Shown here in pieces: positions 1 to 15,178 of a stretch of DNA of 64,000 nucleotides. The stretch is from IMG/VR virus record IMGVR_UViG_3300049215_000223, positions 1 to 64,000 of that record. One strand, given 5' to 3'. Both the position numbers and the translations under genes were made by a program. A model generated the notes under the pieces. It saw only the letters and a program-made list of their open reading frames with translations. It did not search any database and was not told the origin of the DNA. This DNA comes from a virus. The stretch's first letter is position 1. The number at the start of each line of letters is the position of its first letter.

Positions 1-4
1 AGAC

Positions 5-75
5 CAAATAGTATGGGAATTGAACCCATCTCGATTCTATTACAAGTAGAACTGAAGCACCAGCTTCCACTATTA
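5..75 (-). tRNA. tRNA-Thr (anticodon TGT)
   Basis: The minus strand folds into a tRNA. The acceptor is TAATAGT/ACTATTT (6 of 7 pairs) and the T-stem ATGGG/CCCAT carries the loop TTCAATT. The anticodon stem TTCTA/TAGAA carries the loop CTTGTAA, which gives anticodon TGT (reads ACA). The variable loop is TCGAG. The D-arm is odd: it can only form a short-looped hairpin (GAAGC-TGGT-GCTTC). No CCA is encoded. Folded by eye, so exact ends may shift by one base. Confidence 0.72.
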
Positions 76-96
76 TATTGCCATCACATCACTCAG

Positions 97-139
97 CGCA
101 TTGACCAGGACTCGAACCTGATTGGTTGCCATACAATGC
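97..139 (-). ncRNA. tRNA-like minihelix (acceptor plus T-arm only)
   Basis: Acceptor-like strands GCATTGT/TCAATGC (6 of 7 pairs) flank a T-arm of TCAGG, loop TTCGAGT and CCTGG. Only an 11-nt connector stands where the D-arm, anticodon arm and variable loop should be. The discriminator position is G and CCA is not encoded. The element at 12476-12521 has the same architecture and the same connector length. It may be a tRNA deletion derivative or a functional minihelix RNA. Confidence 0.5.
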
Positions 140-147
140 TTTAGATA

Positions 148-228
148 TTATTTGTTATCAATAGGATGACCGCAAGACTGACAGTTCATATGTCGATAAT
201 CAATTTGAGGAATAGAAATTAGTAACAT
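148..228 (-). CDS. 26-aa peptide with one CxxC knuckle
   Basis: A short frame whose ATG overlaps the TAA of the gene upstream (TAATG), the coupling seen across this region. The C-terminal half reads MNCQSCGHPIDNK, like the first half of a zinc ribbon. It lies between a GW-tail gene and the tRNA cluster. Function unknown; it may be a truncated Cys-ribbon protein. Confidence 0.4.
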   Translation of the reverse strand: MLLISIPQIDYRHMNCQSCGHPIDNK

Positions 229-530
229 TAGCACACCGCCGAATGTTCCCAGCCATCATAATCTTCTGGTCAAACACTAAGAACATCAGAAACAAATTCT
301 CTGTCTAGATCACCAAACTTCTCTTCAAAAGAAGCTGGCGTGTAAGTTTGACTCAAAGGAGATACTTGGGCATGAAAGGGGATTCCATATTTTTCTGAAA
401 TCTTTACAGCCTCTTTGATTGCCTTCTCTGCAATTTCTAATTGAATTCCAACTTCATCATCAAACTTATCAGCTAGAGCTTTGAACTCGTCTTCAAGTTT
501 CAGTTCTTCCTCAGTCTTGTCGTCATCCAT
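228..530 (-). pseudogene. GW-tail family gene interrupted by in-frame TGA
   Basis: Eighty-six acidic, helical residues run from ATG 530 to an in-frame TGA at 270-272. The same frame then continues for 13 codons ending in DGWEHSAVC and TAA. That tail matches the C-termini of the neighbours at 1666, 2087, 4630 and 5032 (GW[ST]xSSxxC), so the stop probably interrupts an intact family member. Alternatives are readthrough of TGA or a base-calling error. Confidence 0.6.
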
Positions 531-539
531 AATATACTC

Positions 540-1511
540 CTATAGTTGTTTTGCTTTGGCTAGGTACCAGCCACGAGCTTTATCACTCAGCGGTTTCTGG
601 ACTTGCTTCCAATCCAGATTGCTAGCTGCCATTTCGTCTTGGGTTTCTTTTTGAACATCACCAAGAACCCAGGCTACGAATTTACCAGTCAGCTTCATAT
701 CAACACCGCCGACCGCCGTAGCGCCTTGGTCTAGACGAGCCTCAGTCAATACCATCGAAACGAAGGCATCAATGCTGGCAGCGGATGCTGCGTCAACCTG
801 AGCCGGTTTAGCAGTAGCAATGTTCTTATGCTTCTCACCTTTAGCTTTGAAGACTAGATTGGCGAAATTGGTATAACCAAGATGCTCTTGGGTAGTCGGG
901 TAAAAGACTAGACCTTCACCAGTGCCTTTGATGCCGAAAATAGCTTCCACCCAGGGATCGTTTTCTTCAACCGCACTTACCCAACTATTGATGTTATCCA
1001 CATCCTTAGTCAAAGTCTCGCTAGAAGCTGACCATTCCATATCCAAACCTTCATTGTACCAGGGTAGAATGTAGGTGTCAGGAATGCCGCCTACGATATG
1101 CTTTAGGTCGCCTGGCTCAATGACCAGGGATTCAGGATTCTCCATGGAACGAACGGCAAAGACCGCAAAGCACTTCTTGGGAAGTGTAGAGACCGCAACA
1201 CCTTTTTGAATGCCGGGACCGATCCATTCGCCATAGACGATATGGTTGTTCTTAAGATTCCACTTATCTTTGTTCTCTTCAACCCACCTGGCGAAGCCCG
1301 CATTGTCGTTACCAACTGACAGTTCAGCGGTACGACTTTGGGCAATCACCCTACCATCTTGATGACATTGGATGGCAGCGTTGGTACCATGGAGTTTTAC
1401 TTTTGGTCGATAGTGTACCAGGCTCTTACCATTTAGAATCTCTGGATGAGCGGAAGTAAACTTGCGTATATTGTGAAAACTTTCAATCTCTGTCCAAGCT
1501 ACAAATGCCAT
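540..1511 (-). CDS. RNA ligase, Rnl2-like nucleotidyltransferase
   Basis: A 323-aa ATP-dependent ligase that would seal nicked RNA through a lysyl-AMP intermediate. Nucleotidyltransferase motifs are visible in order: motif I KVKLHGTNAA (Lys near residue 39), motif III VYGEWIGPGI, motif IV EGLVFYP and motif V VFKAKGEKH. A C-terminal helical extension follows. It lies just downstream of tRNA-like genes, as expected for phage tRNA repair. The TAG stop is directly before the next gene, showing that TAG acts as a true stop here. Confidence 0.85.
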   Translation of the reverse strand: MAFVAWTEIESFHNIRKFTSAHPEILNGKSLVHYRPKVKLHGTNAAIQCHQDGRVIAQSRTAELSVGNDNAGFARWVEENKDKWNLKNNHIVYGEWIGPGIQKGVAVSTLPKKCFAVFAVRSMENPESLVIEPGDLKHIVGGIPDTYILPWYNEGLDMEWSASSETLTKDVDNINSWVSAVEENDPWVEAIFGIKGTGEGLVFYPTTQEHLGYTNFANLVFKAKGEKHKNIATAKPAQVDAASAASIDAFVSMVLTEARLDQGATAVGGVDMKLTGKFVAWVLGDVQKETQDEMAASNLDWKQVQKPLSDKARGWYLAKAKQL

Positions 1512-1666
1512 TATCTTCCTCTTGATTTAGTACTCAGTCGTGATCTAAATTTTTTCTTCTTTTGTTCCTGAGGAAACTTATAGAAGAATAGATAGATCAT
1601 TAGACAGATATCAAAGATACAAATTATAATATCTACGATACTGAGTATGATATCTAACTTATCCAT
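1511..1666 (-). CDS. 51-aa membrane protein with basic tail
   Basis: The frame opens at an ATG overlapping the TAA of the gene upstream (TAATG) and ends with a TAA overlapping the ATG of the RNA ligase gene. One Ile/Leu/Val-rich segment (about residues 4-27) is followed by a Lys/Arg-rich tail ending in RSRLSTKSRGR. This suggests a single-pass inner-membrane peptide. Both overlaps support it as real. Function unknown. Confidence 0.6.
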   Translation of the reverse strand: MDKLDIILSIVDIIICIFDICLMIYLFFYKFPQEQKKKKFRSRLSTKSRGR

Positions 1667-2076
1667 TAGCAGTAGCTACTAGAAGTAGACCAGCCAGCAG
1701 AATTGATTTCGGTTTCCAAATCGGAAACATCAATCATCTCTAGCTTTTGAGCCAGATAACAATCACCTTCATCACGTAGCCATTGACTATTGAAAAGAGC
1801 AGGTAAGTTAGCTTCTTCGCGGAGCCGATTAACTTCCCTCAAAGCCTTGGTTGCTTCCCTGATCTTGCGATTAATCTGAGAGGCGGTATCACCAAACTCA
1901 GCTTCCAAGTCTTTGTAAAGGTTAACATCGTTGACGTTGACCTTCCCAAGTCCGCCCTCTTCCCATTCAATCGCAATGATCTCGGGACCATCTTTAAGTT
2001 GATTGCCAATCACGACACCAACATTACCATCCTCATCTTGGATCTTGGTGTTGATTTCCATTTCAATAGCTTTCAT
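1666..2076 (-). CDS. GW-tail family protein (136 aa)
   Basis: The start at 2076 is set by an AAAGGAG ribosome site 7 nt upstream that overlaps the preceding stop. The N-terminal 50 residues look like a small beta-barrel (VGVVIGNQ...IIAIEWEEGG), as in KOW/SH3-like proteins. A helical, charged middle follows, then the tail INSAGWSTSSSYC. Members at 2087, 4630 and 5032 share this plan. Function unknown. Confidence 0.7.
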   Translation of the reverse strand: MKAIEMEINTKIQDEDGNVGVVIGNQLKDGPEIIAIEWEEGGLGKVNVNDVNLYKDLEAEFGDTASQINRKIREATKALREVNRLREEANLPALFNSQWLRDEGDCYLAQKLEMIDVSDLETEINSAGWSTSSSYC

Positions 2077-2086
2077 GATATCTCCT

Positions 2087-2491
2087 TTAGCAATGCAACG
2101 AAGATGTAGACCAACCGGCAGCATCCATTGCTCGAAGCAAAGGACCAACAGCCTCATACATTTCGTGCAGGTCTTGACCTCCAGCTTCAGCCATCTTAAC
2201 AGCTTCAGTCAGCTTGTTAGCGGCTTCCTGAACCCTTTCACGACATGCGGTTTGTAGCTTTGAGAACTCTTCAGATAGGCGATCGTATTCAGCCTTCGCA
2301 TCAGCCTCCAACATCAAAGCCGAAGTTTTGACTTTGTTGACCGTATCGCCCGCCCAACGCTTATCCCATTTAACAACTACCACATTAGGATCATCAGTCT
2401 GAGCAATTACTTTGCCAACAGGCGGAGGATTTTCATACCTGGCATTGGTCTTGCTAACCTTTTCCGAGACACGAGTTCCGATGCTAAACAT
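2087..2491 (-). CDS. GW-tail family protein (134 aa)
   Basis: Barrel-like N-terminus (GKVIAQTDDPNVVVVKWD), coiled middle and terminal GWSTSSLHC. The start at 2491 follows a good sigma-70-type promoter at 2514-2541, so this gene probably heads a leftward transcript with the genes at 1666, 1511 and 540. Function unknown. Confidence 0.7.
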   Translation of the reverse strand: MFSIGTRVSEKVSKTNARYENPPPVGKVIAQTDDPNVVVVKWDKRWAGDTVNKVKTSALMLEADAKAEYDRLSEEFSKLQTACRERVQEAANKLTEAVKMAEAGGQDLHEMYEAVGPLLRAMDAAGWSTSSLHC

Positions 2492-2513
2492 TTTGTTTTC
2501 CTTTATTGTTGAG

Positions 2514-2541
2514 AATTTATCCACTGTTAATTTTTTGTCAA
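2514..2541 (-). promoter_or_regulatory. sigma-70-like promoter
   Basis: TTGACA at 2541-2536, a 16-nt spacer and TAAATT at 2519-2514, about 23 nt upstream of the start at 2491. It lies between the displaced gene fragment and the GW-tail gene. Confidence 0.55.
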
Positions 2542-2543
2542 GA

Positions 2544-2711
2544 CTAGTATTTGGAGCCAGTGAAGGGTTTGACCAAACCAGACTGAACGTCCTTCTGAAA
2601 TTTGTCCCAGTAACCCTCTGGATACAATTTAAGAATTTCCAAAGCGTTCTCATAGGCAAACTCTCGGAACCAACCGGAAGTAATGCTAGAACATACCTTG
2701 GAAAGTGCAAA
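2544..2711 (-). pseudogene. Displaced 3' fragment of the nucleotidyltransferase-like gene
   Basis: About 55 codons (FALSKVCSSITSGWFRE... to a stop) closely match the C-terminus of the gene at 3016-3933 at protein level, though the DNA has diverged clearly. No start exists. The fragment is cut off from its parent by the plus-strand HNH gene. This looks like the original gene end left behind when an endonuclease element with its own version of that end inserted. Confidence 0.65.
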
Positions 2712-3041
2712 TATAATCTTTCTAAAAAAGAATATCTCAATCAGAAACGACAAGAGCGTCGTCAATCAAGATATCTTTATTTATTGAATTATTTATCAAA
2801 TCATGGGTGCGTGGATTGCGGAGAAACCGATCCTATCGTATTAGATTTTGACCATGTATCAGGTGACAAAATTGACGCTCTTAGTCATATGGCACATGCT
2901 GTTAGACCAATGGATGTTATCCAACAAGAGATTGAAAAATGTCAGATTAGATGTTCAAACTGCCATAGAAGAAAAACTGCCAAGGAGCAGAATTGGTACT
3001 ACTATGTAGATTTTTCTAATATGACACTGAAGACTTCGTAA
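2712..3041 (+). CDS. HNH homing endonuclease, 5' end unclear
   Basis: A basic N-terminal region leads into CVDCGETDPIVLDFDHV (first Cys pair and catalytic DH) and CQIRCSNCHRRKTAKEQ (second Cys pair and HxxR), a classic HNH nuclease. The frame is open leftward through antisense sequence, but no ATG lies near the homology start, so a non-ATG start or 5' truncation is likely. It sits on the opposite strand between duplicated ends of a minus-strand gene and overlaps the right copy by 26 nt. Confidence 0.75.
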   Translation, partial: YNLSKKEYLNQKRQERRQSRYLYLLNYLSNHGCVDCGETDPIVLDFDHVSGDKIDALSHMAHAVRPMDVIQQEIEKCQIRCSNCHRRKTAKEQNWYYYVDFSNMTLKTS

Positions 3042-3933
3042 AGGGTTTTACTAGACCTTTCTTGATATCTTCCTGGAATTTTTCCCAGTATCCAATAGGA
3101 TATAGCTTCAAGATATCAAGAGCGTTTTCGTATGCGAAAGCTCTAAACCAACCACTGGTAATAGAGCTGCACACTTTACTCAAGGCAAACTTCCAGGCGT
3201 ATTCTGGAGTCCATACATTGGGGTGTGGTACGAGAGAACGCTCAATGGCAAGAACGGCAGCCTCTTCGATAACACCATTCATTCGCACTTCCTTGGGAAG
3301 AGCAAAGAATTTGTTCTTGTCGCACTGAACCTGCTCGCCATCCTTCATGTAATAGGTGTAAGCTGGTCGCTCACCACGAGCAACGGATTCATGAATAGTA
3401 TCATGGTCATACACGTACTGAATAGCGTCGTCAGCAAAGAACCCATCCTTGGATTGATTCAGTTTGGGGTGAGAATAGTTGTAGGTCTCTTTCTCACGGA
3501 GCTTGAAGAAGGCTTGGTACTCCGGGCGAATCTCACAACCCACATGTTTCAACACATGGTAGTCAAGTAGAGTCTTCCAGAAGTGTGGGCTGTTCTTCAA
3601 GTACTTATGTGAAGCCTTGATGGTGAACAGCATGTCCAGCGAGGGAACATCACCGAAAGGAGTCTCGATAGATTCCGGATCACCTTCTACGATATCCAAA
3701 AGCATTTCCGTGCTGGTACCAGGAACATTGATTTCGAATTCGCAGTTGGTAGAACCTTCCACGATCATCTTGTTCTTGACAGCATACACCTTGGTCGGAT
3801 TGACCTTGGCGGAATTCTTTTCCATCCAAGTATCAAACTCTTCCTTCGTGCAAACGAAGTCAAAGTCCTTAGGTTGACGCATCAAAAGCTTGGGCGCGCG
3901 AAGTGCCAAAGCACGAGAGCCAATGAGAATCAT
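3016..3933 (-). CDS. Putative nucleotidyltransferase-fold protein (305 aa)
   Basis: Begins MILIGSRALALR and continues to PKDFDFVC, matching the GS-x-AL...D-x-D pattern of minimal nucleotidyltransferases. The rest is helical with several aromatic patches. Its last 55 residues are duplicated at 2544-2711 beyond the HNH insertion. Substrate unknown. The fold call rests on the N-terminal motif only. Confidence 0.55.
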   Translation of the reverse strand: MILIGSRALALRAPKLLMRQPKDFDFVCTKEEFDTWMEKNSAKVNPTKVYAVKNKMIVEGSTNCEFEINVPGTSTEMLLDIVEGDPESIETPFGDVPSLDMLFTIKASHKYLKNSPHFWKTLLDYHVLKHVGCEIRPEYQAFFKLREKETYNYSHPKLNQSKDGFFADDAIQYVYDHDTIHESVARGERPAYTYYMKDGEQVQCDKNKFFALPKEVRMNGVIEEAAVLAIERSLVPHPNVWTPEYAWKFALSKVCSSITSGWFRAFAYENALDILKLYPIGYWEKFQEDIKKGLVKPFTKSSVSY

Positions 3934-3951
3934 TTTCTAGATTTTTCTTTC

Positions 3952-4195
3952 TTAGCATGGTGTTCCCGAAGGAGACCACCCCTCATCATCATAATCGTAT
4001 GCGCCATTGCGATAGCCTAGATTGCACTCATAGGTAGAGCTATTCCAGCCTTCATCTCTAACGCCCCGTCTTTTGGATTAATAGCTGAATCAAAGCGTCC
4101 ACATCTACTGGAGACAGCTCACCTCGCGACTCCTTGTCGCGAATCTGTTGGTAAGTTTCTTGCATCAGCTTTTCAAATTCAGCATTCAAATCCAT
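3952..4195 (-). pseudogene. GW-tail gene with +1 frameshift
   Basis: ATG 4195 opens a frame that stops after 46 residues. A one-base shift near the G4 run (4064-4067) joins it to a frame carrying two copies of the family tail, DEGWNSSTYEC and DEGWSPSGTPC, then TAA. The N-terminus resembles the next gene (EFEKLMQ). One extra G explains it, so decay, programmed shifting or a homopolymer error are all possible. Confidence 0.55.
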
Positions 4196-4209
4196 TTTGA
4201 ATTCCTTAT

Positions 4210-4407
4210 TCAACCACACCAATTAGAACGACGCCAAGCTTCATCGGGCATTGGACCAAGATGGTCCTTCATGCCTAGGCGTTCTTCCAACATTTTCTGA
4301 AGCTTCTCAGCTTCCTCCTTACTATGCTTACGTTCCCTGTAATCATAGCGTAAGTTTTCAAAAACTGACTGCATCAGCTTTTAAAACTCCCATTCTAAAT
4401 CATCCAT
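4210..4407 (-). pseudogene. GW-tail relative with nonsense codon at position 9
   Basis: Starts MDDLEWEF, then TAA (4383-4381), then KLMQ. The neighbour at 4195 reads EFEKLMQ, so TAA replaces a Glu codon. The frame continues to DEAWRRSNWCG and TGA. Translation could restart at the in-frame ATG at 4374, giving a 54-aa product. The start overlaps an upstream TAA (TAATG). Confidence 0.5.
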
Positions 4408-4478
4408 TAATGCTTCCCTCTACACCAACAGGCGCAATGTGCAATGCACAATGCACAGTTTACGAGAGCAAACTTCAT
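4407..4478 (-). CDS. 23-aa Cys/His-rich peptide
   Basis: A tiny frame (MKFALVNCALCIAHCACWC...) ends with TAATG overlap into the next gene. The underlying DNA is a run of short GTGCATT-like repeats, so the Cys pattern may be a by-product. No strong ribosome site. Confidence 0.25.
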   Translation of the reverse strand: MKFALVNCALCIAHCACWCRGKH

Positions 4479-4553
4479 CCGGTTGCCAATTGCAATTGTC
4501 ACCGTCAATTTCGTTTGCCCTGCAATAAATAGATTTTTTTTGCTTGAGGCTTC

Positions 4554-4628
4554 TTATCTCTCAGAGAGAGAGAGAGAGAGAGCTAGCAATAAGCCGCCCA
4601 CAATACCAATACAAATAGCTGTAATCAT
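4554..4628 (-). CDS. 24-aa membrane peptide containing a (CT)10 tract
   Basis: ATG lies 1 nt after the TAA of the gene at 4630. The product is hydrophobic (MITAICIGIVGGLLLA) and then LSLSLS encoded by the dinucleotide run. Any change in repeat number other than a multiple of three units alters the frame. Real expression is uncertain. Confidence 0.35.
   Translation of the reverse strand: MITAICIGIVGGLLLALSLSLSER
4563..4582. repeat. (AG)10 microsatellite
   Basis: Ten uninterrupted AG units on the plus strand, inside the 24-aa frame on the minus strand. Dinucleotide tracts this long are prone to slippage. Confidence 0.9.
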
Positions 4629-4629
4629 A

Positions 4630-5025
4630 TTAACACCAAAGAGAAGAGCTGCTCCAACCACCATGTTCGATGGTTGATTCTAGCTCCTTTACATCAATGA
4701 GTTTCAATCGATGCAAATCGTAATGACTAACCTTAGATTTATTTTCTAGATTGTGAAGCTCTTGTAATGCATGAAAGGCTACTTGAAAGGCGTCTTTGGC
4801 AGCATCTATTTTGGATTGATACTCTACAGCAGTCTTCTTAATCTCTTCTAGATCGTAGAGGTGAAGCTCCTTAATATCAAAACTATCTGCCGCCCCGGAG
4901 GAGTCATTTGCAGGTTTGACTTGTACCAAACCATCCGCATCGGGCTGGGTAGTTACAATGTAACGATACTCGATACCATCACAAGTGAAAACCTCAGCGC
5001 CAACAACACAATCTTTTGCTTTCAT
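4630..5025 (-). CDS. GW-tail family protein (131 aa)
   Basis: Barrel-like N-terminus (VGAEVFTCDGIEYRYIVTT), then a long helical region and the tail EHGGWSSSSLWC. It is 6 nt downstream of the gene at 5032. Probably co-transcribed with 5032 and 5414 from the promoter at 5868-5896. Confidence 0.7.
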   Translation of the reverse strand: MKAKDCVVGAEVFTCDGIEYRYIVTTQPDADGLVQVKPANDSSGAADSFDIKELHLYDLEEIKKTAVEYQSKIDAAKDAFQVAFHALQELHNLENKSKVSHYDLHRLKLIDVKELESTIEHGGWSSSSLWC

Positions 5026-5031
5026 GATTCC

Positions 5032-5403
5032 TCAGTAGCAGTTAGAAGAAGACCAGCCAACGTCCATGGCAATCTCCTTCAATAGGCTAGTGTCAAGGTC
5101 GTAGTCGTAAGACAGGTTGCGAATAGTCGTGCCGCGCTTTTCAGCTATGTCCCTAGCTTCTGATAGAAGCTCTGTAGCTTGTTCAAGCTTTGCTTTAATC
5201 TGTTCAAAGTCCTTCTCAAAGGACTCATCATAGGCTTCTAGACAATCGAATGCTACCCTATCTAGCTCGCCATCTTCCCATTCGACAGCAATCATATCCG
5301 GTTCGGAAACGCTACGACCAATTACCGTAGCCTTACGAGGGGGATCCCAATCGGCATGACGGGCGATTACTTTCATACCAGCTTCAAAGTCTTCAGCTTC
5401 CAT
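5032..5403 (-). CDS. GW-tail family protein (123 aa)
   Basis: The N-terminus holds ATVIGRSVSEPDMIAVEWED, close to the matching stretch of the 1666 gene (VVIGNQ...IIAIEWEEG). A coiled region of about 55 residues and the tail DVGWSSSNCY follow. A small beta-barrel tied by a coil to a Trp/Ser/Cys tail is the family plan. Function unknown. Confidence 0.7.
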   Translation of the reverse strand: MEAEDFEAGMKVIARHADWDPPRKATVIGRSVSEPDMIAVEWEDGELDRVAFDCLEAYDESFEKDFEQIKAKLEQATELLSEARDIAEKRGTTIRNLSYDYDLDTSLLKEIAMDVGWSSSNCY

Positions 5404-5413
5404 TTTATTCTCT

Positions 5414-5818
5414 TTATTGAGTTACTTGTTGTCTCATCCTGGCATAGCGGGCAAATGCTTCTGCCGCAACTACCTTAGCCCCCTCACATAGGAAGCAATT
5501 AACATGAGTTACTGTATATCCAGTAGCCGTTTCTAAACGGTTCTCAAAGTGTCCCGCGCCCGCACATGCAGGACAAGTATTCTTGGTAACATCATCATTA
5601 CCAGCCAAGTCTTCGAGCACTTCCATATCTGAAATATACTCCTGAACAAGCTCAAGTGCCTCTGGACTGAGAGTTACTTCTTTTGCTTTTACGTAAGTTT
5701 GAGAAGCATCTTTTTCTAATTCTACCGAATAGAATGTTACTTGATCATTCTCAATACAGTGTGCTACAACTTTTCCAAATCCTCTAGGTGTGTTTACCCT
5801 AGTGCCTTTATGAAACAT
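5414..5818 (-). CDS. Barrel plus DnaJ-type zinc-finger protein (134 aa)
   Basis: Residues 1-45 resemble the family barrel (RVNTPRGFGKVVAHC). A CPACAGAG...CFLCEGAK module near residues 80-115 resembles a DnaJ-type zinc finger, and the protein ends in a basic helix without the GW tail. It is the first gene after the promoter at 5868-5896. Confidence 0.65.
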   Translation of the reverse strand: MFHKGTRVNTPRGFGKVVAHCIENDQVTFYSVELEKDASQTYVKAKEVTLSPEALELVQEYISDMEVLEDLAGNDDVTKNTCPACAGAGHFENRLETATGYTVTHVNCFLCEGAKVVAAEAFARYARMRQQVTQ

Positions 5819-5867
5819 TGCTCTTTACCTTTCCAATTAAATCCTAACTGCGAATATTGAGGATGTA

Positions 5868-5896
5868 ATTATAGGCACGAACATTTCGTTAGGCAA
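5868..5896 (-). promoter_or_regulatory. sigma-70-like promoter
   Basis: TTGCCT (5896-5891), 17-nt spacer, perfect TATAAT (5873-5868), about 50 nt upstream of the gene at 5414-5818. The best sigma-70-type site seen in the left half. Confidence 0.6.
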
Positions 5897-5940
5897 GGGG
5901 TACCATTTAGAAAAAATGATTCCCCTATCGGAAGGTTGGA

Positions 5941-6081
5941 TTAGGCATCCGCAGGAGGATGTTGAAGAACATCTACCGCAGCCATCACCATATGGCTACA
6001 ATTTTCTTCTTGGTCAATCAGCCAGTAATAGGCTGCCAGAACGAACAGAGCCGTGATGTGTTCATTATGAGAACGAATCAT
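5941..6081 (-). CDS. 46-aa helical protein
   Basis: ATG overlaps the TGA of the gene at 6078 (ATGA). The product has a hydrophobic stretch (ALFVLAAYYWLI) and ends HPPADA. Coupling to the coiled-coil gene upstream supports it. Function unknown. Confidence 0.55.
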   Translation of the reverse strand: MIRSHNEHITALFVLAAYYWLIDQEENCSHMVMAAVDVLQHPPADA

Positions 6082-6389
6082 TTCTTTTCCCTTTGGGCAA
6101 GAAGAATTTCCCAAGTTTCCGGATCCAAATCAGGAAGAATCTTTCGGAAGCGTTCAATATCTTCCTCACGTTCCAATGACTTGTGGTCCAGGTTCCTGTG
6201 CCGCCAGATACGCAATTCTTCCAGAAGCCTATCTCGAATGAGATTCGTTTCGATTAGAAGCGATTCGGCATCCGTCAAGGCTTTCTTAGCTTGAGAAACC
6301 TTGCTACGAATGCCCTTCTGCTCACGTTCTACTTCTGCAATCTTGAGAAGCAACGCCTCCTCTTGGAGGCGTTGCGCTTCGGTCAACAT
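6078..6389 (-). CDS. Coiled-coil protein (103 aa)
   Basis: Almost entirely charged helix with heptad-like Leu/Ile spacing (residues 1-75), ending in LPDLDPETWEILLAQREKK. I chose the start at 6389 because longer frames would overlap the gene at 6413. Function unknown. Confidence 0.6.
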   Translation of the reverse strand: MLTEAQRLQEEALLLKIAEVEREQKGIRSKVSQAKKALTDAESLLIETNLIRDRLLEELRIWRHRNLDHKSLEREEDIERFRKILPDLDPETWEILLAQREKK

Positions 6390-6412
6390 GCGAATCTCGT
6401 TTGTGAAATTGT

Positions 6413-6685
6413 TTACAGACCCAAGTGAATGCGATCGTTCACATTCATCTTGAGGATTGACTTCTGAGCTTCGGGGCTGAGACCATTCCAAATCTCGACA
6501 CCCTTCTCCGAAGAGCTGATCTCTCGTACGATCTCCCATCCGCGCCCACACTCGACTTCGATCCACTTGTTGGTCTCTTCATCGCGAACCCATTTCGTGT
6601 AAATGCGGTCTCGGCGTTCGACCACGATCTTGTGGCACTTGTCACCCAGATTTGTCATACGACCAGTAACTTGACATTGAAACAT
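6413..6685 (-). CDS. 90-aa phage protein
   Basis: Starts MFQCQVTGRMTNLGDKCHKIV and ends in a mixed alpha/beta segment (GLSPEAQKSILKMN). There are two Cys near the N-terminus but no full zinc site. A ribosome site (AAAGGAG) precedes it. Function unknown. Confidence 0.6.
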   Translation of the reverse strand: MFQCQVTGRMTNLGDKCHKIVVERRDRIYTKWVRDEETNKWIEVECGRGWEIVREISSSEKGVEIWNGLSPEAQKSILKMNVNDRIHLGL

Positions 6686-6697
6686 TTGATTTCTCCT

Positions 6698-6913
6698 TTA
6701 CCTCTTTTGAGGCATGTGTTTTTCACAAGAACATTTGGGCATCCAAAACCTTACTGTAACAATCACGCAGACAGCCATGACCAGTAAGGATTTGAATTCA
6801 ACCCTATAGCCTTCACCAACAATCAGGTTGTTGATTGTCCATAAACATGCAAGCGTGATTACACACTTGATGGTATATGGAATAACCCAATTGGTAATGA
6901 AGAATTTAAACAT
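6698..6913 (-). CDS. Two-helix membrane protein (71 aa)
   Basis: Two hydrophobic helices, about residues 10-32 and 42-57, then a short tail with CSC. Likely an inner-membrane protein. Function unknown. Confidence 0.55.
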   Translation of the reverse strand: MFKFFITNWVIPYTIKCVITLACLWTINNLIVGEGYRVEFKSLLVMAVCVIVTVRFWMPKCSCEKHMPQKR

Positions 6914-6924
6914 GACCTACCCTA

Positions 6925-7203
6925 TCACGAATCAGATTCGTCGTCAGCCTGCGTGCGCCGACGATGTTCCGCCTTCGTGTGCTTGTTGCGATCTTCCTTC
7001 TTCTCTCGTGCCTTGAGCGCGGGATTGAAAGGAATCAGATGCTTCCATTCGTCCATGATGTAGCTGTCGCGACCAAAGTCAACGACAACTTCATTCTCGG
7101 AATTGCCCACACGCGCATAGACAACGCCCTTTGCGCCCGCGAGATCCTCCGCGAACTTTGCGCCAACGTACGAAACTTCATCATCCTTCATGAAACGAGC
7201 CAT
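6925..7203 (-). CDS. Small beta-barrel protein with basic/acidic tail (92 aa)
   Basis: AKGVVYARVGNSENEVVVDF near residues 24-43 suggests a KOW/SH3-like barrel, related in style to the GW-tail N-termini. A highly charged KEDRNKHTKAEHRRR stretch and an acidic end follow. Function unknown. Confidence 0.6.
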   Translation of the reverse strand: MARFMKDDEVSYVGAKFAEDLAGAKGVVYARVGNSENEVVVDFGRDSYIMDEWKHLIPFNPALKAREKKEDRNKHTKAEHRRRTQADDESDS

Positions 7204-7207
7204 GTAT

Positions 7208-7378
7208 TTATTCCTTATTCTTGATTACTTGTGGACGCCACAAAACCTTGAGATGTTTACGGCATCTCAAACATTCCAAATTGCCACCGCCCCAATCGTG
7301 AAATTCATGAGGCTGATGACCTACAATCCAACACCAAGGACGGAGATTTAATTTAGTGATAGTCAGACTAACAATCAT
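7208..7378 (-). CDS. 56-aa protein with CxxC
   Basis: An open frame from ATG 7378 with a His-rich middle (HQPHEFHDWGGG), then LECLRCRKH and a basic end. Its stop is 5 nt before the gene at 7203. Probably zinc-binding through C-x2-C and neighbouring His. Function unknown. Confidence 0.55.
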   Translation of the reverse strand: MIVSLTITKLNLRPWCWIVGHQPHEFHDWGGGNLECLRCRKHLKVLWRPQVIKNKE

Positions 7379-7625
7379 TCACAGGTCATCTGATGCTATC
7401 GAGTTGTTGGTTCCTGCTCCGGTTAACGGTGATTGAACCTTTTGCGTCGATTCTAAGTGCCGATCCGCTACACCTGTGTGTCTATCTATTTAATATAAAA
7501 GTCATAACCAACCTACCACACCGAGAGAGGGTTAAGCCTAGCTGTTTCATTTTCACTCATTATCCCGCTAAGCGAACAATGATATGACACGTTTTATCTT
7601 TTAACGGACAAACGTGTAAAACTTT
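7379..7625. other. Non-coding gap
   Basis: No convincing gene. An 8-bp inverted repeat (ACACGTTT/AAACGTGT, about 7590-7620) lies just beyond the gene at 7626 and may act in 3'-end formation, but it lacks a clear T-run. Confidence 0.4.
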
Positions 7626-7988
7626 TTACTTCTTGGACTTGTGCTTGGCAGCCTTGGTAGCAGCACGCTCCAAAGCAACACGCGCAACATTCGTCTCGCT
7701 GCGCTTTTGATTCAAGCTTCCGTGCTTGTGCGCAAGCCAATCCTTGGCAACCTGCTCGCCTTCGGCGGCAAGCTTGGTTGCAAAGACCTTGAGCGAAGGC
7801 GCTCCCTTGGAAGGCTTCCAGGTCTTGCGATGAGGATGAGCATCGTTGCTCGTATCTTCACGCGTGAAATGTGCTTGATGCCAACGCTGCTTGATCGTAA
7901 GCTGCGTTGTGGCAGTACCGACTTCACCACGCGGTCCACGCGCAGCCTCTTGCGGCACTTCCTCTTGAGTCTCTTTCATGTCTTCCAT
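7626..7988 (-). CDS. Basic 120-aa protein
   Basis: An acidic N-terminus (about 15 residues), then a strongly basic body ending in AATKAAKHKSKK. The KHKSKK end and high Lys/Arg/His content suggest a nucleic-acid-associated protein. No known domain recognised. Confidence 0.55.
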   Translation of the reverse strand: MEDMKETQEEVPQEAARGPRGEVGTATTQLTIKQRWHQAHFTREDTSNDAHPHRKTWKPSKGAPSLKVFATKLAAEGEQVAKDWLAHKHGSLNQKRSETNVARVALERAATKAAKHKSKK

Positions 7989-8354
7989 ATCTCTGTTCCT
8001 TTGGCACTCGCTATTGCGATTCAGGGATTGTTGATGCGGCAGAGCAGACTTACCGTATCGATTGTCAATTTCCTCGTCTGTAGGTTTCCCCTATTCATTG
8101 GGGATTCGCCCATGCACGGGAGCTAGTTCTGCGGGGAGAAAAGAGTACATTCTTTTTCCTTGCGTCGGCTTTTCACCGCGAGTGTTTATTAATTTCCCCC
8201 AATACCTGTATCCACACAACTCGTTCTATTGGGTAATTCTTCAAACCTGTTTTATAGACTCCGGTGCCTAAATTACTTAGCATGCCAGCACCATCTATGT
8301 CTCAGGCAAGAAGAAGATTTTTAGAATCTAAGCATGACCAAGTAACTGTCAAGC
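7989..8354. other. Non-coding gap
   Basis: No well-supported gene; only a doubtful 36-aa minus-strand frame near 8283. It contains short hairpins (GGGGATTCGCCC region). I see no promoter or tRNA that I can defend. Confidence 0.35.
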
Positions 8355-8561
8355 TCAGTTCAGATTTTTATTATCCAATGGCTCGAAGCCCATCATGGCA
8401 CGGATGTAAGCTTCCTCCGTCCACCCACATGCATTGATGAAATCTGCAATGAATTCGCAGTGTTGGCTGATGGAATCGTCATCATCAGGATCGATCTTCT
8501 TATCGTAAAGAAGATCAACTTGTTTGGATACATACTCGTACGGAAGTTTCGGCAGGTTCAA
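8355..8561 (-). CDS. CGWT-motif protein (68 aa)
   Basis: Starts with TTG overlapping the TGA of the gene at 8558 (TTGA); an AAGGAGAG site about 8 nt upstream supports this start. It contains FINACGWTEEAY, matching YMQACGWTWDEL of the next gene, so the two are paralogues. Function unknown. Confidence 0.6.
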   Translation of the reverse strand: MNLPKLPYEYVSKQVDLLYDKKIDPDDDDSISQHCEFIADFINACGWTEEAYIRAMMGFEPLDNKNLN

Positions 8562-8731
8562 TTTGAACTCTCCTTGTAGTTCAGTAGTTCATCCCATGTC
8601 CAACCACAGGCTTGCATATATGCTTCAATTGTAGCAGCGCATTCTTCTGCCTGCTCTATGTTCTCTAGCTTACCACCAAAGAGCAATTGGTCAAGACCCA
8701 GAACCATTTGGCTGTAAGATAAACGTTTCAT
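8558..8731 (-). CDS. CGWT-motif protein (57 aa)
   Basis: Paralogue of the gene at 8355. Start 8731 overlaps the TGA of the metalloprotease gene (ATGA). Acidic helical segment, then ACGWTWDELLNY. Function unknown. Confidence 0.6.
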   Translation of the reverse strand: MKRLSYSQMVLGLDQLLFGGKLENIEQAEECAATIEAYMQACGWTWDELLNYKESSN

Positions 8732-9267
8732 TTTTGGCACGGAGGAAAACGGCGGGCATCGCACCACCAAATCTCACAAAAGGAATACATATCCCTACAT
8801 GTGAGGTGATCAGATGAATCATCAGTGTGACTCATCATAACTGTTTGTTTTCGATGACTCATATCATCGTCGTGATCTAAACCAATAGCATGACTAATCT
8901 CATGCAAAACGGCTTGGGCAAAGTCTCTTTTAGAAACATCTGTAGCTTCAAAAAGAACATTGTCTTCACCACGATAGTTAGCTCGACCAATCACCTCATG
9001 ACCATATACCTTTTCCAACTCTTTTCGAGTTGAAGGGAAAATGGCGATGAGGGCTTGTGAATGGTCCTCTTGGTTGGCGACTTCACGAAAGGTTACAGTA
9101 TCGTTAGTAGCAGCTTCCCATTCTACCAAAGCAGAGTGGATAGCTTTCTTTTGCTCGTCAGTGAATCCAGTTGGACTAACGTATACGTTGTACTGATGAG
9201 TTGGGCTAAGCATTCGAGGTGGAACGCAGCCAGTTAGTACAACGAAGCCAAGCATTTTGAAATTCAT
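8728..9267 (-). CDS. Matrixin-like zinc metalloprotease, lipoprotein
   Basis: A 179-aa secreted protein. The lipobox VVLTGC near residue 14 predicts lipid anchoring after export. HEISHAIGLDH is the metzincin zinc site HExxHxxGxxH, followed by a Met-turn candidate (VMMSHTD). A second protease with the same zinc motif but different sequence is at 34748-35383. Possible roles are envelope remodelling or attack on neighbouring cells. Confidence 0.8.
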   Translation of the reverse strand: MNFKMLGFVVLTGCVPPRMLSPTHQYNVYVSPTGFTDEQKKAIHSALVEWEAATNDTVTFREVANQEDHSQALIAIFPSTRKELEKVYGHEVIGRANYRGEDNVLFEATDVSKRDFAQAVLHEISHAIGLDHDDDMSHRKQTVMMSHTDDSSDHLTCRDMYSFCEIWWCDARRFPPCQK

Positions 9268-9294
9268 ACTACAACCGTCTTGGTTACAAGACGC

Positions 9295-9552
9295 CTACTT
9301 TCGATCCTCGAAATCTTTTTGAGCATCTTCTAGCTTGGAGAAGTAATGTCCCCAATAGAATTCAGCATGAGTCCATTCGAAAATACCAGGCTCAATTTCT
9401 TGAACCTTTAGATTCTCACGATGGACAACGTAATGGTTGTGCAGGTTTTCTGGAATGTGACGAATCACAATGCGAGCAGGCATCATGCCCTCATCCACTT
9501 TGATGGAACCAGACTGAATGATATCAGACTCGTTGACAATCTTCATCTTCAT
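9295..9552 (-). CDS. 85-aa phage protein
   Basis: Mixed alpha/beta: MPARIVIRHIPENLHNHYVVH, then FEWTHAEFYWGHYF and a charged helix. No motif recognised. 3 nt from the next gene upstream. Confidence 0.55.
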   Translation of the reverse strand: MKMKIVNESDIIQSGSIKVDEGMMPARIVIRHIPENLHNHYVVHRENLKVQEIEPGIFEWTHAEFYWGHYFSKLEDAQKDFEDRK

Positions 9553-9555
9553 GAT

Positions 9556-9744
9556 CTATCCCTTTCTTTCCAGAATCATACTGGTCGTTGCGCTGTTGGC
9601 TTCATTGAGAACAACCAGCTGCAAGTCACGTGTATCGACTTCAGGATGCTTCTTCATGATCTCTTCCAGAGCATTGAAGACCTCATCGCCGATATCAAAC
9701 CCTTCACGAGTATAACAAGCTTTATCATCGAACAATCGTTTCAT
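9556..9744 (-). CDS. 62-aa phage protein
   Basis: Starts MKRLFDDKACYTREGF and has a central helix (DEVFNALEEIMKKHPEV). First gene downstream of a 15-bp intercistronic element (36 nt). Function unknown. Confidence 0.55.
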   Translation of the reverse strand: MKRLFDDKACYTREGFDIGDEVFNALEEIMKKHPEVDTRDLQLVVLNEANSATTSMILERKG

Positions 9745-9780
9745 GCTCTTTCGTTCCGTTCCTTATACTCTATGGTTCTA

Positions 9781-9796
9781 GCCGTTGGGCGATGGG
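9781..9796 (-). repeat. 15-bp intercistronic element, copy 1
   Basis: CCGTTGGGCGATGGG on the plus strand (minus strand CCCATCGCCCAACGG). Leftmost copy, 36 nt upstream of the gene at 9744. Confidence 0.75.
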
Positions 9797-9869
9797 CGCC
9801 GTTCAGCCACACTGTAATTGTTACTGCAACATAGCAATAACTTTTTCTATGTGCTCGTCCTGCAAACCG

Positions 9870-10229
9870 TCATTGAACTTGGTTGCCACCAATCATTTGA
9901 CCCAACCGAAGATGGGGGTGCTGAACCCAAATGCTATACAGCTTCTCTACCATCATTCGTTTTTGTTTGAGACCCAAGGCATGTCCCCATTTAGCTCCAT
10001 TCCACCAAGCTTTACCAGTTGCTTCGCGTTGCTCATACCAGGCATCATTAGCCAGTCGAGCCTTTTCTTCTGCTGCCTTAGCCTTCATAGTAATATGATT
10101 AAGGTCAGTTTCCAACTCTCTGTTTCTTTCACTCAGAGCTTGAACGAGTTTCTCCAGTTCCACTACTCGTGGTGAACAGACGGAGCAAGCACATCGAACT
10201 AACTGGCTTGTATGTTTAAACTCATCCAT
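9870..10229 (-). CDS. Coiled-coil protein with CxCxxC N-terminus (119 aa)
   Basis: CACSVC near residue 13 precedes a long coiled coil (VVELEKLVQALSERNREL onwards), then a Trp-rich segment (GKAWWNGAKWGHALG). Probably structural or regulatory. Function unknown. Confidence 0.6.
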   Translation of the reverse strand: MDEFKHTSQLVRCACSVCSPRVVELEKLVQALSERNRELETDLNHITMKAKAAEEKARLANDAWYEQREATGKAWWNGAKWGHALGLKQKRMMVEKLYSIWVQHPHLRLGQMIGGNQVQ

Positions 10230-10238
10230 TGTTATCCC

Positions 10239-10376
10239 TCACCAATACTTGGCAATGAAATGCCATGCCACGCAAATGGCTGCGATAGTTGCAGCCAAAG
10301 ACAATAGCATTGTCACAATCCACACTACTAGGAAACCACTAACAAAAGTGGCTCCTGAATTGAAACGCGCTTTCAT
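10239..10376 (-). CDS. 45-aa single-pass membrane protein
   Basis: MKARFNSGA, then a hydrophobic helix of about 30 residues (VVWIVTMLLSLAATIAAICV). ATG lies 1 nt after the TGA of the gene at 10378, supporting co-translation. Confidence 0.55.
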   Translation of the reverse strand: MKARFNSGATFVSGFLVVWIVTMLLSLAATIAAICVAWHFIAKYW

Positions 10377-10377
10377 T

Positions 10378-10590
10378 TCAGCGGCGACCGAGAATCGTGG
10401 CTACGATGGCAACCAGAAGGAACAGGAGGAGGATCGAAAGACCAATGCCCGCACTGATCCAAAGCGGCGAAAGAACCCAAAGCCAGCTCCAAGTGATCAC
10501 ATGACCCAGCTTGAGACCGATGAAGAGAAGTGTGAGCAGCCCGGCAAATCCAACACCACTCGACGAAGACGACGATGAACTATCACTCAT
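10378..10590 (-). CDS. Membrane protein with poly-Ser N-terminus (70 aa)
   Basis: MSD followed by eight serines, then two hydrophobic helices (residues 13-30 and 40-66) and GRR. Function unknown. Confidence 0.55.
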   Translation of the reverse strand: MSDSSSSSSSSGVGFAGLLTLLFIGLKLGHVITWSWLWVLSPLWISAGIGLSILLLFLLVAIVATILGRR

Positions 10591-10726
10591 GATACTTATT
10601 CCTTTTTGTTTTGTTTATGCAGATTCTGCCAGATGATTTTCTGGCGAAAAATTCTTCTTCATAACCATCTAGATGAGGTCGGTCTGTCAACCATTCTTCA
10701 TGGAAGTATTCCGACCTAACATTCAA
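10583..10726 (-). CDS. Possible 47-aa protein with TTG start
   Basis: An open frame whose end overlaps the start of the gene at 10590. Composition looks protein-like (EYFHEEWLTDRP, DGYEEEFFARK). Only a TTG start is available, and it lies inside the 3' end of the gene at 10716. Tentative. Confidence 0.3.
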   Translation of the reverse strand: MNVRSEYFHEEWLTDRPHLDGYEEEFFARKSSGRICINKTKRNKYHE

Positions 10727-10898
10727 TTCTTGTTCCCACCTGTAACGCTCCTTCAGATGAACCGAAATCTAATTCTTCAAAACCAGAATCGGTTAATTTA
10801 TTGATGAAGCGGGTGTACTTCCTATCCGGGTTATAAACCCGTTCCTTCGGCATGGAGTCCAAAAGATCTTGTGCCGAACCCATCTTCACGTGCTTCAT
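10716..10898 (-). CDS. 60-aa protein
   Basis: I chose the second of two nearby ATGs (10904 or 10898) because AGGAGAA sits at proper spacing from it. It contains MPKERVYNPDRKYTRFIN. Function unknown. Confidence 0.5.
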   Translation of the reverse strand: MKHVKMGSAQDLLDSMPKERVYNPDRKYTRFINKLTDSGFEELDFGSSEGALQVGTRIEC

Positions 10899-10938
10899 TT
10901 TCATTTCTCCTGGCTTTACGCCAATTGATTGTTTCGTT

Positions 10939-11424
10939 TCACTCGTAATGCGGGCGAGGAGTTGACTCGCCCGGATGCTCTTCAACGCAGATACTCAACT
11001 CGGCACCACCTAGTACCGAATAGATATTACCTTCCTGCACTTCACCGAAGATGTTTTGCAGGTGCTTTTTGAATTGATCAACTTGCTTCTCGTCGGGAAC
11101 CAATTGGAATCCCCACTTGCAAGCTTTGATTGGATTGCCGTCGTCATCCTTAGCGCCTTCTTTGGCGCGGTTACAGGTCCAACAGGATGAGTCGTGATGT
11201 TCGTGCGAAGTGGCTTGAACCGGAATGCTGGCAAGAGGTTCACTATGATTGAACCACCATCCACCTTCTTCGGGTCCACCATAGTGGCGAGTCACCTGAT
11301 AAGCATTGACATACATCAATGTAGATGTGCCTGGGCGAACGTAATCCTCAGGAGGATAATCACATTCATGGCATGCGCCACAGCTATCTATCTCTTGGTC
11401 ACATGTCATACATACTTGACTCAT
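10939..11424 (-). CDS. Cys-rich phage protein (161 aa)
   Basis: An N-terminal CMTCDQ...CGACHEC zinc-binding region, then YGGPEEGGWWF and an ending EEHPGESTPRPHYE. The GGPEEGGWW and PRPHYE signatures are ones I associate with a widespread phage family of unknown function. A second CxxC (CWTCNRA) lies near residue 80. Confidence 0.65.
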   Translation of the reverse strand: MSQVCMTCDQEIDSCGACHECDYPPEDYVRPGTSTLMYVNAYQVTRHYGGPEEGGWWFNHSEPLASIPVQATSHEHHDSSCWTCNRAKEGAKDDDGNPIKACKWGFQLVPDEKQVDQFKKHLQNIFGEVQEGNIYSVLGGAELSICVEEHPGESTPRPHYE

Positions 11425-11426
11425 GA

Positions 11427-11753
11427 TTATTCGTCCTTCATGTCTTTCATTCCATGATGATCAACGACTTCGCCTTGACGCTTGTCCATGTACCTGACGA
11501 CTTCATCCAGAGAAACCGGACGATACTCGTGAGTAATTTCTTTGCAGTCCACTCCAACGTCAACGCTCTTTCCATGAGGAGGAAGCGAGCCGTGAGAATG
11601 TCCATACAAATGAATTGAATCGTGATGTGACTTGTTCCAAACACGCTGCCCGTAATGGAACAGAACGATGAACTTGCCTTCGACTTTCAATTCTTTATAG
11701 TTTTGAAACACGATTGGGTATACATCTGACAATTGCGTGTCCTGTTGCCGCAC
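11427..11753 (-). pseudogene. C-terminal half of a calcineurin-like phosphoesterase
   Basis: FIVLFHYGQRVW, then HLYGHSHG and VDVGVD are the distal half of a metallophosphoesterase, with the GHxHG metal-binding loop. The proximal half that supplies the other ligands (DxH, GDxxD, GNHD) is absent. Only a GTG start is available and the upstream 84 nt encode nothing matching. Probably a truncation. Confidence 0.6.
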
Positions 11754-11837
11754 TTGTAATAGTGCAAAAGGCGAGCTAACTCTAGAAGAGTTTAGAAGTT
11801 GGGCACTTAGACTGGCGGAAAATCTAAGCTAACATTT

Positions 11838-12362
11838 TTACCCGAATACGTGTTTGAACATTTTGCATTGATAGCACAAGTATGTGCCATCACGCTTGTC
11901 TGCGTAAGCGTCTGGATTATACTCGGCGTGAGAGCCACGACAAGTAGCTCCAGGAGTTGTAGCTTGGAAAGGAGAATCATCTTCATCCTCTTCTTCCTCG
12001 ACCTCTTCTACCTCCTCCTCGTCACACAATGCCACGAAGAAGTCGGGAGCCCAAGCAGTGGGAACACAACCTACAGTAGAGATTTGGTGTTCATTTACGT
12101 AGTAGAATTGAACATGTTCTGAATCGCAATTAATATTGCACGTGTTCCAGAACTCCAAAACTTTATCAAGCTGATTTAGAAGCACAAAATTATTCAGAGC
12201 TTGTGCGTCAGTTGCTTGATCCACATCGCTCATGTCCCATTCGTTTTCGATGATGGACATGATTTCCGTACTTGCTTGCGTGAGCGCTTCGTACTCTGTA
12301 TTCCAAAGAGTAATCCTATTCTCGTCGTCATACGGATATGACATTGTGAGTACCCACACCAT
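11838..12362 (-). CDS. 174-aa protein with acidic run and C-terminal Cys ribbon
   Basis: Start 12362 is preceded by AAAGGACG. An alpha/beta body, then an uninterrupted acidic stretch (EEEVEEVEEEEDEDD) near residues 115-130, then CRGSHAEYNPDAY...CYQCKMF, a possible zinc ribbon. It is downstream of a sigma-54-like box and a 15-bp element. Function unknown. Confidence 0.6.
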   Translation of the reverse strand: MVWVLTMSYPYDDENRITLWNTEYEALTQASTEIMSIIENEWDMSDVDQATDAQALNNFVLLNQLDKVLEFWNTCNINCDSEHVQFYYVNEHQISTVGCVPTAWAPDFFVALCDEEEVEEVEEEEDEDDSPFQATTPGATCRGSHAEYNPDAYADKRDGTYLCYQCKMFKHVFG

Positions 12363-12394
12363 GATACTTCGTCCTTTCAATTACTAGGTTCATA

Positions 12395-12409
12395 CCGTTG
12401 GGCGATGGG
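12395..12409 (-). repeat. 15-bp intercistronic element, copy 2
   Basis: CCGTTGGGCGATGGG, 32 nt upstream of the gene at 12362 and 28 nt downstream of a sigma-54-like box. Confidence 0.75.
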
Positions 12410-12437
12410 CTAGTTACAGCCACAACAGAATATTGCA

Positions 12438-12453
12438 TGCAAAATCTGTGCCA
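12438..12453 (-). promoter_or_regulatory. Sigma-54-like promoter box
   Basis: TGGCACAGATTTTGCA on the minus strand matches the sigma-54 consensus TGGCAC-N5-TTGC, with GG and GC exactly 10 nt apart. The predicted start near 12427 would put the 15-bp element in the leader of the gene at 12362. No activator site identified. Confidence 0.5.
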
Positions 12454-12475
12454 ACGATTTCAGAAAAAAGATAAA

Positions 12476-12521
12476 TGGCTGTCCAGCCTGGACTCGAACC
12501 AGGGACCTGAGCTACTGAACA
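12476..12521 (-). ncRNA. tRNA-like minihelix with encoded CCA
   Basis: TGTTCAG pairs over all 7 positions (one G-U) with CTGGACA, followed by discriminator G and an encoded CCA. The T-arm is CCTGG, loop TTCGAGT, CCAGG. Between the first acceptor strand and the T-arm lies only TAGCTCAGGTC (11 nt), so D and anticodon arms are missing. The connector begins like positions 8-15 of a normal tRNA (TAGCTCAG), which suggests an internal deletion. The element at 97-139 has the same plan. Confidence 0.6.
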
Positions 12522-12526
12522 ATACT

Positions 12527-12727
12527 TCAAAGGAAAATGCGGCGAAGATATTCGCGCGCAATTACGAATGGAATGAAAGGCAATGCAAAGACTGCTAGCC
12601 CACCATCACCACTATGATCGCTCTTGTGACCAGAAATTGCATACCACGCCCAAACAACAGCGCATAATGCTAACCACAAAAACAGTAAGGCTAGTGGGAC
12701 ACCCACCACCCAATAAATGACATGCAT
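12527..12727 (-). CDS. Membrane protein (66 aa)
   Basis: One long hydrophobic N-terminal helix (VVGVPLALLFLWLALCAVVW), a polar loop, a second hydrophobic segment and a basic end (REYLRRIFL). Function unknown. Confidence 0.55.
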   Translation of the reverse strand: MHVIYWVVGVPLALLFLWLALCAVVWAWYAISGHKSDHSGDGGLAVFALPFIPFVIAREYLRRIFL

Positions 12728-12940
12728 TTAGTTTTTCCAATTCTCCCAAAGTCTTAGAGCCCGTTCCTTATTCGGAGTACAACGCTCACGAACGTATACA
12801 TCAAGAGGCTCTTTGAATGTGCGCCCGCATACAAGGCAGTCTGCACTAGACTGCATCCCTAAACGATTAGTGTTTTGATGGTGAGCCAATGCATGACCAA
12901 ACCTATCAAACACAATCTTGGGATCGTATGGGGAACTCAT
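12728..12940 (-). CDS. 70-aa protein with His pair and CxxC
   Basis: HALAHHQNTNRLGM followed by ADCLVCGRTF suggests one zinc site. A basic helical end follows (RCTPNKERALRLWENWKN). Start 12940 overlaps the TGA of the frame upstream (ATGA). Confidence 0.6.
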   Translation of the reverse strand: MSSPYDPKIVFDRFGHALAHHQNTNRLGMQSSADCLVCGRTFKEPLDVYVRERCTPNKERALRLWENWKN

Positions 12941-13285: not shown

Positions 13286-13293
13286 ATTCGCTC

Positions 13294-13400: not shown

Positions 13401-13486
13401 ATTTACTCTTGGATGCTTATGGTTGTTCTTAGATTTAGCCGCCCTTCATAGAGGGTAACCTAAGAGCCATTGGGGATTACATCTTG

Positions 13487-14197: not shown

Positions 14198-14206
14198 TGT
14201 TTCCTC

Positions 14207-15102: not shown

Positions 15103-15178
15103 AAAAGAAATGCGGGCGCTAATACGGAGCAGCTATGCCGGAAAGGAGGACTTGTTGCCTATCCATATCGGCGCCCAG

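Follow-up and report, generated by a model that had tools for sequence, protein, structure and literature searches.

A 42-base hairpin resembling the upper half of a tRNA beside a phage tRNA-Thr gene, and its possible origins

Next to an intact tRNA-Thr gene, a virus record carries a real 42-base RNA hairpin that resembles the upper half of a tRNA (element 1). The window that we analysed is the first 64 kb of this record, which is 178,722 nt long and carries phage-like genes, for example an RNA ligase (PF09414); a second hairpin of similar build (element 2) is found in the same window. We rank two explanations for element 1 above all others. The first, for which we consider the scales to be evenly balanced, is that it is a shortened tRNA gene, reduced to acceptor stem and T-arm by one internal deletion. 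The second, which we place below the first, is that it belongs, as an outlier, to a family of minihelices that occurs in other phages.

Read on the minus strand from 139 to 97, the sequence is GCATTGT ATGGCAACCAA TCAGG TTCGAGT CCTGG TCAATGC G. A preliminary description had assigned to it a 7-11-5-7-5-7 layout with the T-loop TTCGAGT. Layout and loop are both present, but the seventh acceptor pair is a T.T mismatch, so that six of the seven acceptor positions pair, and RNA folding favours a 6-bp stem, 11 nt and another 6-bp stem. What both elements have of a tRNA is a T-arm with a TTCRA loop and an acceptor stem (6/7 pairs in element 1, 7/7 in element 2). The anticodon arm is absent in both, with just 11 nt separating acceptor and T-stem. 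In its tRNA mode ARAGORN called neither element, and an Rfam search up to E <= 10 gave no tRNA match for either of them. The 50 low-specificity calls of the mitochondrial mode of ARAGORN were set aside, and an antisense Rfam match to Plastid-ycf2 (21.6 bits against a cut-off of 65.7) was read as a resemblance to a T-arm. The folding energies are unremarkable (z = -1.55 for element 1 and -0.45 for element 2), and because of these weak z-scores we dropped the argument from folding energy.

Table 1. Positions in the window of the two elements, their parts and the neighbouring genes
Feature	Position	Strand	Remarks
tRNA-Thr (TGT)	about 5..75	-	intact; at contig end, 22 nt downstream of element 1; ARAGORN
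Base at the discriminator place of element 1	97..97	-	G; with C96 gives the tail GC
Element 1	98..139	-	acceptor/T-arm minihelix GCATTGT-ATGGCAACCAA-TCAGG-TTCGAGT-CCTGG-TCAATGC; 42 bases
T-loop of element 1	110..116	-	TTCGAGT
Connector of element 1, 7+5 framing	122..132	-	ATGGCAACCAA; 11 nt
Connector of element 1, 6+6 framing	123-133	-	TATGGCAACCA; GG = connector positions 4-5
Possible 26-codon ORF	148..228	-	MLLISIPQIDYRHMNCQSCGHPIDNK; stop 8 nt upstream of element 1
RNA ligase (PF09414)	540..1511	-	upstream of element 1, same strand
Discriminator and tail of element 2	12476..12479	-	G + CCA, encoded (GCCA)
Element 2	12480..12521	-	TGTTCAG-TAGCTCAGGTC-CCTGG-TTCGAGT-CCAGG-CTGGACA; tRNA-Asn minus 30 nt internally
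66-aa ORF	12527..12727	-	weak match to DUF2244 (membrane-protein family), below cut-off; stop 5 nt upstream of element 2

Element 2 can be demonstrated by alignment to be a tRNA-Asn with a single 30-nt internal deletion between CAG repeats. A BLAST search with positions 12470-12530 retrieved phage tRNA-Asn genes, and 41 of 46 positions, the tail included, are identical to the tRNA-Asn of Pseudomonas phage phiK7B1, with one gap of 30 nt. In the tRNA-Asn of Acinetobacter phage MD-2021a, TAGCT[CAG]TCGG...CCG[CAG]GTCCCTGG, the junction of element 2 lies between the two CAG repeats set in brackets. When single deletions were scored against all intact tRNAs of the collected loci (854 counted), element 2 without its tail reached 38/43, compared with a maximum of 26 in 30 shuffled versions. 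Exact searches of viral contigs gave 0 matches for its core and 0 for its T-arm/acceptor end, a search for related loci starting from the adjoining protein found none, and no intrinsic terminator was found at the element.

We infer that element 1 came about in a similar way, one internal deletion having removed the D-arm and the anticodon arm of a tRNA beside the tRNA-Thr. Element 2 is a proven case of internal deletion in the same phage, and element 1 lies only 22 nt from a tRNA. Its stack is 12 bp long like that of a tRNA (7+5, one acceptor position being mismatched), and at the discriminator place it has G, as bacterial tRNA-Ser has at position 73. Deleted tRNAs with an 11-nt connector also occur in the viral contigs L020, L033 and L295, and a relative, G003, bears tRNA arrays (57 of the 58 ARAGORN tRNAs of the 15 sampled regions). 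The best single-deletion matches of element 1, with 29/43, are tRNA-Ser(TGA) genes that carry GGCAACCA beside the T-arm. However, this score is barely above the shuffled maximum of 26, both of these tRNA-Ser loci had been retrieved with the GGCANNCA pattern, and no parent tRNA was found for element 1 among the tRNAs scored.

The RNA of such a shortened tRNA could still stack its acceptor stem and T-arm coaxially into a minihelix, but could not decode. The acceptor/T-arm minihelix is the minimal substrate of RNase P, and the host enzyme might still cut element 1 on its 5' side; by default, element 1 would be a possible cleavage point between the short ORF upstream and the tRNA-Thr. The putative product of that ORF has a CxxC motif and no Pfam match. 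The presence of the RNA ligase gene near element 1 and the tRNA-Thr may point to tRNA repair. As a shortened tRNA, element 1 would be a minor curiosity.

It had been argued that two independent copies with one geometry speak against random decay. By themselves the two copies do not support this, as element 2 is itself a deleted tRNA-Asn and the length of the connector varies elsewhere. We searched viral contigs for TAGCTCAG closely preceding GGTTCRANYCC and kept those rows with a paired acceptor (at least 6/7); this left 8 of 34 rows, with connectors of 7 (three times), 10, 11 (three times) and 14 nt. In bacterial genomes, where 8 of 92 rows had a paired acceptor, the connectors measured 8, 10, 12, 17, 19 (three times) and 20 nt. 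The 11-nt connector is common, but not exclusive, among deleted tRNAs, and since their connectors range from 7 to 20 nt, the shared length of 11 is weak evidence against decay or for selection on length. A peak at 13 nt in the bacterial genomes (66 of 92 rows) was rejected; judged by eye, it consists of ordinary tRNA-Tyr genes with TAGCTCAG in the long variable arm.

A descriptor search across related phages, as had been suggested, did not bring up further copies: in the sampled relatives (58 ARAGORN tRNAs) there was no minihelix with an 11-nt connector outside a called tRNA, and the two framings with this length sit within ordinary tRNAs. The relatives G001 and G003 show 66% and 56% identity in the ligase. 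Element 1 is absent from the sampled stretches of both, and no such element was found at the syntenic places (ligase; 11838-12380; 13487-14197). A megablast search of window positions 1-20000 against phages gave no match. As a separate observation, ARAGORN missed tRNAs of G003 (480 kb; loci L068 and L069) whose D-arms are odd or reduced, for example near 8939 in L069 and near 11573 in L068.

The second explanation draws on other phages. Comparison of their sequences gives good support to a large and apparently undescribed family of tRNA-like minihelices of about 40 nt, which lie between genes. Its members consist of a 5-bp stem, an 11-nt connector A-N-Y-GGCA-N-N-CA, a 6-bp T-stem and the loop TTCGAGT, and are carried by Streptomyces, Mycobacterium, Microbacterium and uncultured phages. 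A BLAST search with element 1 gave weak matches only (E about 4), some of them in Send513 and other Mycobacterium phages, where they fall between genes in DNA without annotation. Between 25 and 71.5 kb, Send513 has 14 T-arm hairpins with GG-TTCRA, all on the coding strand and 0 on the opposite one. Eleven of the 14 are intergenic, and 11 of the 14 follow the 5/11/6 layout of stem, connector and T-stem (GGCA in 9, AACGGTTTTCG in 2). Scanning viral contigs with a pattern gave at least 181 matches in at least 119 loci; among the matches listed (181), both stems are present in 159, of which 124 fit an 11-nt connector best. The tail is AC or GC (purine-C) in 206 of 212 copies taken by the 5/11/6 descriptor.

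Family members tend to start shortly after a gene. When ORFs of 50 codons or more are considered, 147 of 191 members start 0-20 nt past a stop, compared with 451 of 3,771 controls, and in 86 of the 191 the distance is 6-8 nt. In Streptomyces phage Endor1 all 8 elements lie between genes, 7 of them 6-15 nt past a stop. One family member matched 135 phage records (111 Streptomyces, 24 Mycobacterium), with a feature annotated there in 0 of the 30 that were listed; another matched 26 records (19 Streptomyces, 7 Microbacterium), with 0 of 26 annotated. In six family loci Rfam gave no match at the gathering score except for GOLLD elsewhere, the best near-match of the family on the plus strand being mascRNA with 16.3 bits (cut-off 42.5). 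ARAGORN found no tRNA in seven loci, the six with the family and L213. Going by search listings, we found no description of the family in the literature, and a look-up of terms in the phiJoe paper (PMC5311408) gave no match.

A covariance model (R1) was built from 44 of the 165 unique copies (85% redundancy filter, GGCA only). In this alignment 99.8% of the cells pair and the covariation is 0.945, compared with 0.205 after shuffling; note that the stems were chosen for pairing and that GGCA, CA and, in the pattern-matched copies, the T at loop position 7 were fixed by the search pattern, so that independent evidence comes only from the pair 2:8 and the variants at the pair 9:loop 7. Covariation is seen at two pairs beyond the stems: among the matches listed, connector positions 2 and 8 pair in 158 of 160 unique copies (C-G, A-T, G-C, T-A), and connector position 9 pairs with T-loop position 7 in all 160, both partners varying. 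The connector may therefore be understood as standing in for a D-arm, one pair closing a YGGCA loop and a tertiary pair reaching to the T-loop, on which the GG could dock like G18-G19 of a tRNA. R1 was run on 81 of the 120 family loci (L318-L437); 156 of the 175 matches there score at least 34 bits (34-68), and a few Send513 variants score 23-27.

That element 1 is an outlying "elbow minihelix" of this kind (a stem of 5 to 6 bp, a miniature D-loop of 11 nt whose GG would dock on the T-loop TTCGAGT, and a T-stem of 6 bp) is a possibility that we take seriously without favouring it. With the actinophage elements (Send513, Endor1 and others) it shares the loop TTCGAGT, the 6-bp T-stem, the purine-C tail and a connector of 11 nt in which GGCA occupies positions 4-7 and CA positions 10-11. 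Its start 8 nt past the stop of the putative 26-codon ORF may match their place behind stop codons. R1 detects it with 25.3 bits (E = 6e-4, entire record). In two control searches, one of the relatives and one of 87 other loci picked from earlier searches, ordinary tRNA T-arms scored at most 19.8 bits, two family-like matches of 35-36.5 bits aside. This score speaks against a shortened tRNA, and so do the stop codons 5-8 nt upstream of both elements and the connector: it agrees with the family consensus at 7 of 9 positions, and just 64 of 9,504 simulated tRNA deletions agree that closely. On the other hand, we did not accept the likeness in GGCA alone as proof of membership: deleted tRNAs can yield it too, as these 64 simulated cases illustrate, and real tRNA-Ser genes bear GGCAACCA before the T-arm.

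What decided us against filing element 1 as a family member is that it has neither covarying pair, that its score is below that of the bulk of the family and that its stack is 12 bp (6+6) instead of 11 (5+6). Connector positions 2 and 8 are A.A and position 9 faces loop position 7 as C.T, whereas 0 of the 160 unique members among the matches listed are without both pairs. In addition, the ORF upstream has just 26 codons, and R1 found no family-like match in the relatives over 313 kb, the best score there being 18.9 bits. The 11-nt geometry is borne out in so far as it recurs in other phages, but element 1 itself has neither of the pairs that mark the 11-nt family.

Lying just past stop codons, elbow minihelices would serve as punctuation in the polycistronic transcripts of phages; a cut by RNase P or another tRNA enzyme is the most plausible means. 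If element 1 were a family outlier, a cut right behind the stop codon would be its function; whether it belongs to the family and works is uncertain. The full proposal, which we consider rather unlikely, would make element 1 a remote relation within a large undescribed family of phage RNAs, 40-nt minimal tRNA-elbow mimics that stand behind stops and punctuate mRNAs. It would have anticodon-armless tRNA-like elements, which we describe below, as proposed larger cousins. The connector geometry seen in element 1 does recur, unannotated in the records listed, in cultured phages of Streptomyces, Mycobacterium and Microbacterium. If the minihelices recruit tRNA-processing enzymes, these phages would possess a counterpart of mitochondrial tRNA punctuation that does without tRNAs, and this could be tested directly in the laboratory phages Endor1 (Streptomyces coelicolor) and Send513 (Mycobacterium smegmatis).

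Known systems offer partial parallels. RNase P generates a transcript end at mascRNA and menRNA, which are eukaryotic, larger and have a longer D-like part. Like element 1 they are tRNA-like RNAs without an anticodon, and their Rfam model (RF01684) had no match in window positions 1-260 up to E 10. Truncated prokaryotic tRNA genes and tRNA gene fragments, as far as they are described in the portion of PMC9897764 consulted, likewise have acceptor and T-arm without the anticodon region, but the elements here keep both acceptor strands and the T-arm in register and not just one end. Armless mitochondrial tRNAs (e.g. PMC7730189, in part) are also drastically shortened; they are without D- and T-arms and keep the anticodon, whereas element 1 keeps the T-arm and has no anticodon.

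We think it improbable that this phage has kept both elements as functional minihelices, be it as primers, decoys or processing signals, because they converged on the 11-nt connector. There are two copies with one geometry, each on the coding strand 5-8 nt past a stop codon, but the sampled relatives show no conservation and connector lengths vary widely in deleted tRNAs elsewhere. Moreover, the connector of element 2, TAGCTCAGGTC, departs from the family consensus, and its R1 score of 18.2 bits comes from the T-arm alone.

Finally, we scanned the entire record with a descriptor (T-loop TTCRANN, T-stem 5/5, acceptor at least 6/7, connector 0-90 nt). It returned six rows, namely the tRNA-Thr, elements 1 and 2 with a connector of 11, a reframing of element 1 with a connector of 36, and two rows for one place near 90,007, which we dismissed as chance-like. 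In 300 dinucleotide shuffles of the record the 11-nt descriptor gave 0.023 matches on average, at least one match in 7 shuffles and two matches in none. The real record is thus far above the rate in shuffled sequence, the comparison on which the preliminary description had staked its case, and because no shuffle yields two such matches the pair is not due to chance. A chance hairpin, to which the ordinary folding energy (z = -1.55) and, for element 1 alone, the 7 of 300 shuffles would lend themselves, is hardly credible given the 0 of 300 for two matches and the demonstrable tRNA origin of element 2.

Several tRNA-like structures came up in other phages. A 180-kb phage (L213, IMGVR_UViG_2529292852_000001) has 19 tRNA-like T-arm elements of several families within 13.5 kb of one strand. 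Many of them directly precede AATAGGG or TAGGAGG, which resembles a Shine-Dalgarno site, and two copies are of the 5/11/6 type with the connector TTTGGAATAAA. In Send513 a GOLLD RNA (RF02032, 180 bits; L318:26205-26665) lies in a 1.2-kb gap between the annotated genes gp68 and gp69. In L026, L030, L047, L049, L054, L058, L189, L225 and other IMG/VR loci there are tRNA-like elements that have no anticodon arm but whose acceptor, D-arm and T-arm are intact. Their acceptor is paired in 56 of 102 non-duplicate pattern matches, and the linker from D-stem to T-stem begins sharply at 8 nt (16 with 8 nt, 12 with 9 nt). Many of these loci were scanned without an ordinary tRNA being found, while four meet the Rfam cut-off for tRNA; 19 of 63 elements begin at most 20 nt past a stop, compared with 106 of 1,251 controls.

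The window itself contains, from 35.4 to 53.0 kb, a long run of small ORFs (about 100-230 aa), mostly on the minus strand, which looks like an expanded gene family. Between 45.9 and 53.0 kb, five small ORFs start with a cysteine-containing stretch and end in FS.
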